From assembly GCF_022811925.1 (NCBI RefSeq), contig NZ_CP065511.1, forward strand, positions 62,001 through 126,000: a stretch of 64,000 nucleotides of DNA, in the 5' to 3' direction. Each line of letters begins with the position of its first letter. Within the stretch, counting starts at the first letter, position 1. Source of the DNA: Cytobacillus oceanisediminis (GTDB lineage: Bacteria; Bacillota; Bacilli; Bacillales; Cytobacillaceae). Both the position numbers and the translations under genes were made by a program. The notes under the pieces were generated by a model. It was not told the DNA's origin. It did not search any database and saw only the letters and a program-made list of their open reading frames with translations. Shown piece by piece: positions 9,361-63,733 of the stretch.

Positions 9361-9410
9361 GAAAAGCGCAAGCGCCTTGCCCGACCCTCGAGGGGTTAGA
9401 CGCTGGAGCC
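9361..9410 (+). repeat. Dispersed hairpin element, copy A (truncated)
   Basis: GAAAAGCGCAAGCGCCTTGC at the left end, the CCCTCGAGGGG palindrome in the middle and CGCTGGAGC at the right; the terminal TAGACA seen in other copies is missing. It lies between rho and glpX. Confidence 0.8.
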
Positions 9411-11953: not shown

Positions 11954-12484
11954 TTGTAACTCCCTTCTAAGCCGTTGTTAAACATACATGCTGATATTTG
12001 ACTTCAATATTTAAAAAATTGATAGCCCTTACAGCAAAGGCTACACACTACTTTTCTAACCAATTCCGCCAGAAAATAGCCCCAGCTTCTATAAGAAACC
12101 AAATAGGCTTGTCTTTTTTTTAATATCGGAAAAATAGTCTTTGGGAAAATATGCACTTACATATTATCATGTATCTGCATTTTGCAACATTGCAAGATGA
12201 ATAAGGAACAATTTTCCATATGTTTTTTACAGATTCCGACATTATCTTTATCTTATAGTTTACACGAAAAATCAAATCTCATGTATTGTATTCAAAAAAA
12301 GTTAAAATTAAGAAAGAAGCACTAAAAGCCGGGGTACAAGTGAAGGGGCTGGCTTTGCTCAAGAAAAGCGCAAGCGCCTTGCCCACCCCCGACACCTCGA
12401 GGGGGTAGGCTGCTTGCGCTAGACAGCTCTCAAAGTACAAATAAACAAAGCCAGTTTCCTAGAGTTATTTTTCCGAAGAAAGCA
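11954..12484. other. 531-bp region between murZ and tal
   Basis: No convincing gene. It must hold the murZ promoter, but I could not fix a good one. Copy B of the dispersed hairpin element occupies 12363-12426 and is flanked by 9-bp inverted arms CTGGCTTTG (12349-12357) and CAAAGCCAG (12446-12454). The rest is AT-rich. Confidence 0.6.
12363..12426 (+). repeat. Dispersed hairpin element, copy B
   Basis: GAAAAGCGCAAGCGCC at the left and GCTTGCGCTAGACAG at the right, so AGCGCAAGC pairs with GCTTGCGCT; an inner CCTCGAGG palindrome is flanked by C and G runs. Copy D has AGCGGAAGC paired with GCTTCCGCT, a compensating change in the stem. Confidence 0.85.
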
Positions 12485-37080: not shown

Positions 37081-37260
37081 TTTGGCCGGTATTTCTGTCG
37101 ATTCGGCCGGTAAATATCAGTTTTTGGCCGGTAAATGTTTGTTAAGTCCTTCGATTTATCCATTTGGCCGATAACCTGCCTGGTTTGGCCGTTAAAAGTT
37201 CAAGTTTGGCCGATAAATTGATTATTTTGGCCGTTAAAAGCCTAACTTGGGCCGATAAAT
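37081..37260. repeat. 21-bp-period repeat array 1 (TTGGCCGATAAA core)
   Basis: Eight copies of a TTGGCCGRTAAA-like core. The GGCC positions are 37084, 37105, 37126, 37166, 37187, 37208, 37229 and 37250: intervals of 21 bp except one of 40, where a copy seems lost. The 8-9 bases between cores differ from unit to unit. The array fills the thl-hbd gap. Confidence 0.9.
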
Positions 37261-37330
37261 GATTAGTTTCATCTATCGTTCGTCAGGTAAAACGGAGTTT
37301 TTTCGGCTGCAGCCACCATCCCAAAACAGA

Positions 37331-44909: not shown

Positions 44910-45006
44910 GGGCGGGCATGTCCTTTCCGGAAGGGTTTCTATCATGATATGCTCGTCCCGATGTAACATGCGGAGTTTAGTTTGATTTACTTGCGGGTTC
45001 GGACAG

Positions 45007-45225
45007 GTTATTTGCTAAATTTATCATTTGTTTGCTGATTTGCCGGGTTTGTTGACTAATTTTTTGGGGTTTGCTCTTTAGTTTTCCTGGATTGCTGCCT
45101 GGTTTTCGGTTTGTTTGCTGATTTACCAGGTTTGTTTGCTGGTTTCCTGATTTGTTTGCTAGTTTCAACTATTGTTTGCTGGTTTCCAAGGTTTATTTGC
45201 TAAATTCAGGATTTATTTGCAAAGT
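45007..45225. repeat. 20-21-bp-period repeat array 2 (TTTGTTTGCTGGTTT core)
   Basis: Eleven units with core TTTGCTRRTTT. The TTGCT-like positions are 45012, 45032, 45052, 45071, 45092, 45115, 45136, 45156, 45176, 45197 and 45217: intervals 19-23, mostly 20 or 21. Bases between cores vary. It lies between xapX and the EamA gene; no real gene runs through it. Confidence 0.88.
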
Positions 45226-56806: not shown

Positions 56807-57559
56807 ATGAAAGTACGTCAGGACGCTTGGACAGATGAAAACGATTTATTGCTGGCAGAAACCGTTTTACGGCATGTGAGGGAAGGCAGCACTCAGTTAA
56901 ACGCTTTTGAGGAAGTTGGGGACAAGCTGAACCGCACCTCTGCGGCATGCGGATTCCGCTGGAACGCTGTGGTGAGGCACCAGTATGAAAAAGCGCTTCA
57001 GTTAGCCAAAAAACAGCGCAAACAGAGACAAAGAATGCTAGGAAAGGATCAGGGCGGCAAAAAGAAACTCTTATACTCTCCGCCAGTCCCAACTATGCAG
57101 GAGGTTGAAGCAGCGCCAATTAAGGCAAATGTGATTGTACCGCCGTCACCGGCAGATTTTTACGAGGAGCGCACAGAGGATGAAGTGCATGCCCAAACAG
57201 AAACGGTCCCATCCTTCACCTACTCAGAGCCGGTTTATACTGCGCCTGCACAGCTGGATATGGATACCGTTATCGCATACTTGCAAACATTGAATCATTC
57301 AGGCATTCAGCTTGATATACTAAAGAATGAGAATGAAAGATTGAAGCGCGAAAATGCGGATCTCAGAAGCCGGAATGAAGTGCTTGAGAGCAAAATCGGC
57401 GAATTGGAGCAGAATACGGTAACCATTCAGGAAGATTACGAGACATTGATGAAAATTATGAACAGAGCCCGCAATTTTGTTCTGTTTGATGAAGAAGAAA
57501 GGCCGGCATCCAAGTTTAAAATGGACCGCAACGGCAATTTGGAGAGAGTAGCTGAATAG
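56807..57559 (+). CDS. rsfA: Prespore-specific regulator RsfA
   Basis: Modulates sigma-F-dependent genes in the forespore. The 250-residue protein has a Myb/SANT-like DNA-binding domain ([54 protein letters not shown]), a variable middle and a C-terminal coiled coil ([27 protein letters not shown]). GAGGTT precedes the ATG. The stop codon TAG is formed with the first G of dispersed element copy C, so the end may have been altered by that insertion. Confidence 0.93.
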
Positions 57560-57864
57560 AAAAGCGGAAGCGCCTTGCTCACGAATGAACGCTGACTAAG
57601 AACGCCACGTCCTGTGGCAACGTCTGCATGACCCCCATCCTGGGGGCCTCAAGCACAAGACGAGCCTTCCGGAAAGGCGTCCTTTGCCTTTTTGGGAGGA
57701 TTGCCCGAAATGTGGAGGCGACTGCCCAGGGACGACAGGCATAAGACGGTTCCTGTAAGAAGGCGTTCTTCCTTCTGAAAGGAAACGGCTTATGACCCCG
57801 AGTCCCTAGGAGCCGCAACAAGACAAGCTTGTGACCTCGAGGGGGTAGGCGCTGGAGCTAGACA
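57559..57864 (+). repeat. Dispersed hairpin element, copy C (expanded, 306 bp)
   Basis: Left end GAAAAGCGGAAGCGCC and right end CCTCGAGGGGGTAGGCGCTGGAGCTAGACA match the other copies, but about 250 bp of extra, hairpin-rich sequence (for example CCAC/GTGG and CCCCCAT..TGGGGG) lie between. AATA occurs on both sides (57555-57558 and 57865-57868), a possible target-site duplication. Confidence 0.8.
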
Positions 57865-58899: not shown

Positions 58900-58997
58900 T
58901 TTAACGGCCAAATCAGCTAGTTTATCAGCCTAAACTATAGCTTTATCGGCCAATTATCGCATTTTATCGGCCAATCTCGAGCCTTTATCGGCCAAAG
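58900..58997. repeat. 21-bp-period repeat array 4 (TTTATCGGCCAA core)
   Basis: Five units with core TTTATCGGCCAA; the GGCC (once AGCC) positions are 58906, 58927, 58948, 58969 and 58990, exactly 21 bp apart. Degenerate units extend to about 58851. The core is the reverse complement of the array-1 core. It lies between pta and lipL. Confidence 0.92.
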
Positions 58998-62570: not shown

Positions 62571-62591
62571 TCTCTACACCTCTTTCTGTAA

Positions 62592-62652
62592 GAAAAGCGG
62601 AAGCGCCTTGCCCACCCCGACCCTCGAGGGGGCAGGCTGCTTCCGCTAGACA
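62592..62652 (+). repeat. Dispersed hairpin element, copy D
   Basis: GAAAAGCGGAAGCGCC at the left and GGCTGCTTCCGCTAGACA at the right, with ACCCTCGAGGG in the middle. AGCGGAAGC pairs with GCTTCCGCT. It lies upstream of ywdI. Confidence 0.85.
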
Positions 62653-62723: not shown

Positions 62724-62962
62724 TCAGTTTTTCTTTTCAAAACGCAAACAAGGATGGCCAGATGCCCGGAAAACTTCGATAGAGGGCATCTGACTGGTTT
62801 TAAAGAAAAGCGGAAGCGCCTTGCCCACCCCCAACCCTCGAGGGGGTAGGCGGTGGAGCTAGACAGTTTAAACTGAAAAGCCCTGCAGCCTTTTGGATGG
62901 CTCCGGTCCCATGTAACATAGAAATATTCACATTTAAAACAATCAATTTTCTGTGAACTCAT
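62724..62962 (-). pseudogene. Small CxxC protein gene broken by element copy E
   Basis: The reading frame from the ATG at 62962 encodes MSSQKIDCFKCEYFYVTWD, then RSHPKGCRAFQFK, and is then cut by element copy E. After the element the missing end, TSQMPSIEVFRASGHPCLRF then EKKN and stop, continues in another frame to 62724. Removing the element plus one TTTAAA repeat (68 bp) restores one 56-residue frame with the pattern CxxC...GC...SGxPC of a small conserved Firmicutes protein often found by ung. AAGGG precedes the ATG. Confidence 0.8.
62805..62866 (+). repeat. Dispersed hairpin element, copy E with target-site duplication
   Basis: GAAAAGCGGAAGCGCC to GGTGGAGCTAGACAG, 62 bp. TTTAAA stands directly on both sides (62799-62804 and 62867-62872). 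It lies inside the small CxxC gene. Confidence 0.88.
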
Positions 62963-63055: not shown

Positions 63056-63733
63056 TCAGAGATCATGAATCTGCCAGTTAATGGGCTTCTCCCCAAGCTC
63101 TTGTAATATCTCATTCGCCCTTGAAAATGGCCTGCTGCCAAAGAACCCTTTTCTTGCCGAAAATGGACTTGGATGCGGCGATTTTATTATATAGTGTTTA
63201 GAAGCATCAATCAGCACTTCTTTTTCCTGAGCCGGTTTGCCCCATAAAATAAAAACGACGGGCTTTTCCCTCTCATTCAGTTTTTGTATGACGGTGTCGG
63301 TGAAAGTTTCCCATCCCTTCCCCTTATGCGAATGCGCCTGCCCTTTGCGGACGGTCAGAACGGTATTTAAGAGCAGCACTCCTTCTCGAGCCCATTTTAA
63401 TAGATAGCCATTGTTTGGCACCTCGAAGCCCAGGTCATCCTGCATTTCCTTGAATATATTTTTCAGTGAAGGAGGCAGCTTTACATCAGGCTGAACCGAA
63501 AAGCTTAATCCATGCGCCTGCCCCGGCCCATGATAAGGATCCTGACCCAATATCACTGCCTTTACGTCTTTATAATCTGTATATTGGAGAGCATTGAAAA
63601 TATCCTCCTGCCTTGGATAAATGGTTTGCTCCTCATATTCTTTTTTTAAAAATTCACGAAGATGGAGAAAATAGGGTTTCTCGAATTCCTCTGCCAAAAT
63701 CTCCTGCCAGTCATTTCTTAAGATACGCTTCAT
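63056..63733 (-). CDS. ung: Uracil-DNA glycosylase
   Basis: Removes uracil from DNA in base excision repair. The 225-residue family 1 enzyme has the catalytic water-activating Asp65 (LGQDPYHG) and the minor-groove loop [13 protein letters not shown] with the catalytic His. It corresponds to ung in the ywd region of B. subtilis. Confidence 0.97.

Follow-up and report, generated by a model that had tools for sequence, protein, structure and literature searches.

A minimal hairpin repeat, probably inserted with duplication of TTTAAA, interrupts a small gene beside ung in Cytobacillus oceanisediminis

A short sequence (copy E) that interrupts a small gene downstream of ung in Cytobacillus oceanisediminis is very probably an inserted hairpin repeat, a minimal and non-coding representative of a family with many copies, placed there by a single ancestral event in which an enzyme acting in trans duplicated the target TTTAAA. 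Copy E offers a clean record of one insertion, comprising an empty site, a duplicated target and a broken reading frame, and both junctions of the unit are fixed to the base. The hairpin repeat is abundant in the genus, and the family can serve as a test bed for how structured repeats spread without an evident resident mover.

The stretch of DNA that was analyzed, called the window below, is 64,000 nucleotides long. Copy E occupies positions 62805 to 62866 of its plus strand, measures 62 bp and lacks the 3′ tail that is usual in the family. On this strand, the order is TTTAAA (62799 to 62804), copy E (GAAAAGC...CTAGACAG) and a second TTTAAA (62867 to 62872), with the two copies of the target duplication placed from the window sequence and from alignments of relatives. 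Alignments delimit the surrounding remnant of a 56-codon gene for a small CxxC protein (62724 to 62962, minus strand), which lies downstream of ung, encoding uracil-DNA glycosylase (63056 to 63733, minus strand). The latter gene, named from its own sequence and from 80 loci of relatives, was the syntenic anchor, and the named ung loci nearest to it mark the genome as Cytobacillus-like. The last codons of the first gene half, Phe-Lys, constitute one TTTAAA, and the second half starts with the other. Because copy E and one TTTAAA add 68 bp, the halves of the CxxC gene lie in different frames. The original prediction that a 62-bp element splits this gene and leaves its halves out of frame was confirmed by this shift and by matches to insert-free relatives; the halves, compared separately, match such relatives with an overlap that equals the 6 duplicated bases. 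The ends of copy E (GAAAAGC and, reversed, CTGTCTAGC) form no terminal inverted repeat when inspected by eye. The fold of copy E is modest (z of -2.5), compared with -1.9 for a neighboring control stretch and -6.2 for another member of the family, copy D (62590 to 62651 in this calculation).

To place the insertion among relatives, the gene halves were searched separately in 80 ung loci of other genomes and then aligned in 40 chosen rows. The 5′ part of the gene was not found in 7 of the 40, and all counts rest on the remaining 33 rows, which represent relatives and the genome's own DNA; at least 7 of the aligned rows duplicate the reading frame of a different row, which probably means that one genome was counted twice. 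Copy E is present in 5 of the 33 rows (the window, L001, L207, L002 and L206, the last from genome G005), or four genomes, L207 being the same genome as L001 by its coordinates. In 27 of the 33 rows the site is empty, with the gene halves directly joined and the flank matches overlapping by 6 or 7 bases. Exactly one TTTAAA is found in 16 of these 27 rows; in the other 11 the sequence differs from it by one or two bases or the site has diverged. For one additional row (L049) the 3′ alignment failed, yet the reading frame is continuous, for a total of 28 non-carrier rows, all of them without copy E. An intact gene beside ung was also sought in relatives, and an unbroken frame of 56 to 57 amino acids was found in 21 of the 33 rows. 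With the 401-bp locus as a query against 30 relatives, full-length matches among those listed came from G005 (93%) and from G011 (91%, the genome of L001), and pairs of flank matches overlapping by exactly 6 bases came, again among those listed, from G008, G001, G007, G003, G010 and G012. Given the empty sites with a single TTTAAA and the intact frames, copy E is thus an insertion with a 6-bp target duplication.

The opposite history, in which copy E was ancestral in the gene and was precisely excised together with one TTTAAA in relatives, is scarcely credible. It would demand many precise excisions, given 28 of 28 non-carrier rows without copy E and 21 intact frames. A tree of the flanks is poorly resolved and lends this history some support in that L003, a non-carrier, is placed near or among the carriers with poor support, but an AU test does not reject the monophyly of the four carriers (p = 0.26). 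An insertion that occurred once, in the common ancestor of the carriers, is what we infer, and it most likely predates the split of the carrier lineages.

Copy E had also been predicted to have moved recently, and this part of the proposal does not stand. C. oceanisediminis 2691 (L001), Bacillus sp. NTK034 (L002) and G005 all have this insertion at the identical base. In two of these genomes the gene has decayed further, with a 1-nt deletion and an early stop in L001 and an 8-nt deletion in the second half in L002. Thus copy E is not recent, and the candidate explanation of a private, recent jump was rejected. The presence of the same 62 bp in relatives speaks against recency, but not against movement. 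In their flanks, L001 and L002 share about 93% identity with the window, and copy E is tail-less in all four carriers. Both TTTAAA copies are perfect only in the window; in each of the other three carriers, one copy is changed by 1 to 2 bases.

The interrupted gene is not under strict constraint, since separate frameshifts occur in L006 and L011, where copy E is absent. Searches of Pfam and NCBIfam returned no family matching the small CxxC protein. A protein search gave five clusters, three of them named 'uracil-DNA glycosylase', a name probably taken from the neighboring gene.

Membership in a larger family can be recognized from the 5′ end of the repeat. A 16-mer of this end, allowing up to 3 mismatches, has 7 matches in the window compared with 0.68 expected, and a 19-mer with at most 1 mismatch has 111 matches genome-wide compared with 0 for a reversed control. 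The exact 5′ pattern is present in 17 of 18 relatives of the same genus. The boundary is sharp, with 1.28 bits at position -1, 0.30 at -6 and no more than 0.13 from -7 to -30. Around the best 100 of the 111 genomic places there are 105 matches with at most 2 mismatches, 83 of which have a 3′ end within 450 nt of the 5′ end. Among these 83, the distance from 5′ to 3′ end is 61 to 65 nt in 28, 116 to 128 nt in 32, 179 to 183 nt in 7, 238 to 246 nt in 5, 306 nt in 3, and 365 and 424 nt in one each, with 6 at other lengths; the longest complete copy read is 424 bp. Lengths in the family rise in increments of about 61 bp, which reflects the nesting, as read by eye, of hairpin modules that each measure about 60 bp. 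Covariation in the base hairpin is weak; across 14 copies, both partners have changed in 1 of 16 pairs. Searches beyond chromosomes gave one weak match among plasmid records and none among phage records.

Several further members lie on the plus strand of the window, namely a 306-bp nested copy (57559 to 57864), a 63-bp copy (12363 to 12425), a shortened copy with a degenerate 3′ end (9361 to 9409) and copy D (62592 to 62652). The last is an older member 213 bp from copy E, is followed by a tail and is also present in L003 and L006. In four loci without copy D (L008, L009, L010 and L012), CGCTTTTC stands at the position of its 5′ end, which may be what is left of a lost copy or may mark a preferred target.

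Most members of the family are longer at the 3′ side than copy E. There are 73 usable copies, or 82 minus 9 that have other copies in their flanks, and 59 of these run on past CTAGACA into a conserved AT-rich 3′ tail. Comparison of filled with empty sites shows that the tail belongs to the insertion, as it is absent from empty sites. For both reasons, 62 bp was rejected as the full unit of the family. The tail-less class of 14 copies was set by a similarity cut-off and includes some with partial tails; several tail-less copies end at the same place.

Target duplication can be examined across the family by comparing the flanks of each copy with re-paired controls. Among the 59 tail-bearing copies, a flank repeat scoring at least 6 is found at the tail end in 8, compared with 2.4 in controls (p = 0.0005), and one scoring at least 5 in 12, compared with 7.2 (p = 0.04). 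Insertion with target duplication, as originally proposed, is borne out by this excess together with the empty sites in 27 of 33 rows. The excess was not significant when the flank repeats of tail-bearing copies were scored in two other windows, and clear duplication is absent from most tail-bearing copies. An initial test, based on exact flank matches in a wide window, gave a mean of 3.93; the controls averaged 3.54 and reached 4.01, so that the observed value falls within their range. The same test found 12 matches of at least 6, compared with a control maximum of 10. For the 14 tail-less copies, flank repeats show no significant excess over controls (p = 0.25), and therefore the clear duplication at copy E, the best flank-repeat case among them, is not typical of its class.

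The family has continued to move since copy E was inserted. When 19 of the 73 copies were checked against the genomes of L001, L002 and L003, 3 sites were empty in all three relatives, 6 were filled in all three and 10 were mixed or incomplete; the 3 copies private to this genome indicate movement later than that of copy E. At orthologous sites, the insert in some relative differs by more than 15 bp for 10 of the 19 copies, and the copy at L099 measures 122 bp here compared with 266, 272 and 364 bp in three relatives. Deletion remnants underlie some of the 'empty' and 'filled' calls. The site at L194 keeps the 3′ end of the element and that at L240 parts of both ends, and the 'empty' site at L189 is perhaps another such remnant. 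Thus, absence of a copy does not always denote a pre-insertion site.

The target originally had one TTTAAA, as the empty sites show. If copy E was inserted in trans as favored here, an enzyme would have made a staggered cut at this AT-rich target, the GAAAAGC end would have been joined to one side of the cut, and the stagger would have been filled in to yield the TTTAAA duplication. The 62-bp form may be a unit that is mobile without the usual tail, or one whose tail was lost early.

The search for a mover covered the Y1 transposase and reverse-transcriptase families. No match to Y1 transposase was obtained in this genome (two contigs, 100% complete) or in G001 and G010, which have 42 and 33 exact copies of the repeat. 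For reverse transcriptase, this genome has one 28.5-bit match, below the cut-off, in a 159-aa frame. Six relatives that have 9 to 42 exact copies each (G001, G002, G009, G010, G013 and G016) gave no match. With no Y1 transposase and only this fragment, a resident RAYT/IS200 enzyme or group II intron was rejected as the mover in this genome today, although one lost in the meantime may have acted earlier.

These results bear on three other routes of insertion. Target-primed reverse transcription, similar to that of a bacterial SINE, would start from an RNA whose 3′ terminus is the complement of the constant GAAAAGC end. It agrees with one constant end and a variable tail end, with flank repeats of about 5 to 9 bp at AT-rich targets, and with the fact that the element on the other strand ends in a GC-rich hairpin followed by CTTTTC. 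The weak 159-aa match here, the lack of any match in six copy-bearing relatives and the several tail-less copies that stop at the same place nevertheless make this route quite improbable. Repair copying, in which a staggered break is patched with a hairpin fragment and a dedicated enzyme is not needed, is unlikely as well. It is consistent with the failure to find an enzyme of the two families searched and with the L228 copy, whose 3′ half seems by eye to have been rewritten to match its 5′ half in the manner of template switching, but a 5′ end that is constant over about 100 copies is unexpected for random fragments.

The third route is single-strand transposition of the REP or IS200-IS605 kind, with the TTTAAA match being fortuitous. 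A hairpin element with unlike ends would suit it, as would the orientation of the exact copies, 51 of 63 of which run against the replication fork (p = 7e-7; fork direction taken from dnaA at C1:246888, with the terminus assumed opposite). It is very unlikely all the same, given that no Y1 transposase was found in this genome, G001 or G010 and that target duplications are seen here, which transposition of the IS200-IS605 kind is not known to make. The one-mismatch copies listed have no bias (21 of 37 head-on), and 72 of all 100 listed are head-on. Gene context was counted for 82 copies of this genome with a simple ORF caller. Genes flank 80 copies on either side, and 60 of these copies are head-on. 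In 37 of the 60, both neighbors are co-oriented with the fork; in the other contexts 23 copies are head-on against 13. Because 116 of the 160 neighboring genes are co-oriented with the fork, the head-on bias may simply follow gene direction. Structured repeats oriented relative to the replication fork have reportedly been noted before, in the form of the 190-bp repeat of Bacillus subtilis (1997 genome paper). With the same ORF caller, where the left gene runs with the element, its stop codon lies no more than 4 nt from the 5′ end of the element in 19 of 30 cases, and a target preference for TAA may explain such stop codons.

One module of the longer family members is a cataloged RNA. Bacillaceae-1 RNA (RF01690) matches the 306-bp copy at 57580 to 57646 of the plus strand with 80.1 bits (gathering score 35), whereas copy E itself has no RF01690 match. 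This genome has 32 RF01690 matches; among the 30 listed, 18 fall on the same strand within 260 nt behind a listed 5′ end, and 17 of those 18 sit 15 to 25 nt behind the 5′ end of the repeat. The RF01690 family in this genome is in large part a repeat module. Bacillaceae-1 has been listed as a structured RNA in an earlier report (PMC2864571), and with 18 of 30 listed matches close behind a repeat 5′ end here, its matches need another reading. The RF01690 search also matches in B. subtilis.

Various arrangements of this module were seen. In four copies of this genome (L100, L112, L121 and L129), an extra hairpin module lies in the TCC loops of the Bacillaceae-1 module and, by eye, apparently repeats TCC. 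One relative has 14 Bacillaceae-1 matches in a row with a 312-bp period (G016:C4:356465-360587), a pattern suggestive of tandem amplification of an entire nested element. In other genera, Bacillaceae-1 was seen by eye next to tRNA genes, between them or immediately ahead of 16S rRNA (L252, L261, L263, L265, L245 and L269), and in another family (L246 and L270) it appears inside an element with similar ends.

Several known repeat systems invite comparison. BOX elements of Streptococcus pneumoniae are composite, interspersed stem-loop repeats with boxA and boxC parts of about 50 nt and a variable number of inner modules, and BOX insertions in genes have been reported (PMC3049150). The present family appears to resemble BOX-like repeats in kind, a likeness that rests on modular plan and not on sequence kinship. 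In BOX, a tandem array of B parts is enclosed by terminal A and C parts, whereas the modules here are nested and one is an Rfam RNA. The bcr1 repeats of the B. cereus group occur in 11 to 130 copies with signs of mobility, which for bcr repeats is tied to a TTTAT motif (PMC6542083). They are likewise of Bacillus type; here, in a comparison limited to the flanking repeats, copy E is flanked by TTTAAA and other copies by varied repeats. Bhal-1 of B. halodurans, a 74-bp intergenic stem-loop family (PMC2267715) from a Bacillus relative, is similar in size, structure and location when compared by description only. REP elements associated with RAYT transposases are short, many-copy hairpin repeats with unlike ends and a terminal GTAG (PMC3733652). 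In the present family GTAG is internal, none of 14 aligned copies has it at either end, and this genome has no Y1 transposase. Copy E is short (62 bp), non-coding and accompanied by a target duplication, as MITEs are, but lacks their terminal inverted repeats.

A literature search over titles, abstract openings and selected passages, with few subscription papers, gave no description of the hairpin repeat family. It is possible, though rather doubtful, that the family represents an undescribed kind of mobile element, built from hairpin modules of about 60 bp that are nested in one another and include Bacillaceae-1. Such an element would enter AT-rich targets with short duplications in a replication-linked step, would depend on an enzyme other than a Y1 transposase or a reverse transcriptase, and would gain and lose modules in place between species. 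If so, Bacillaceae-1 would not be a cellular RNA gene alone but in part a selfish passenger.

Other repeats are also present in the window. A second family, consisting of tandem repeats of about 21 bp (TTTGGCCGATAA and variants), occupies 37102 to 37267 and 58900 to 58996 and also occurs beside the copy at L094. Finally, diverged, tandem-like repeats of the type TTTGTTTGCTGATTT extend from 44991 to 45220.
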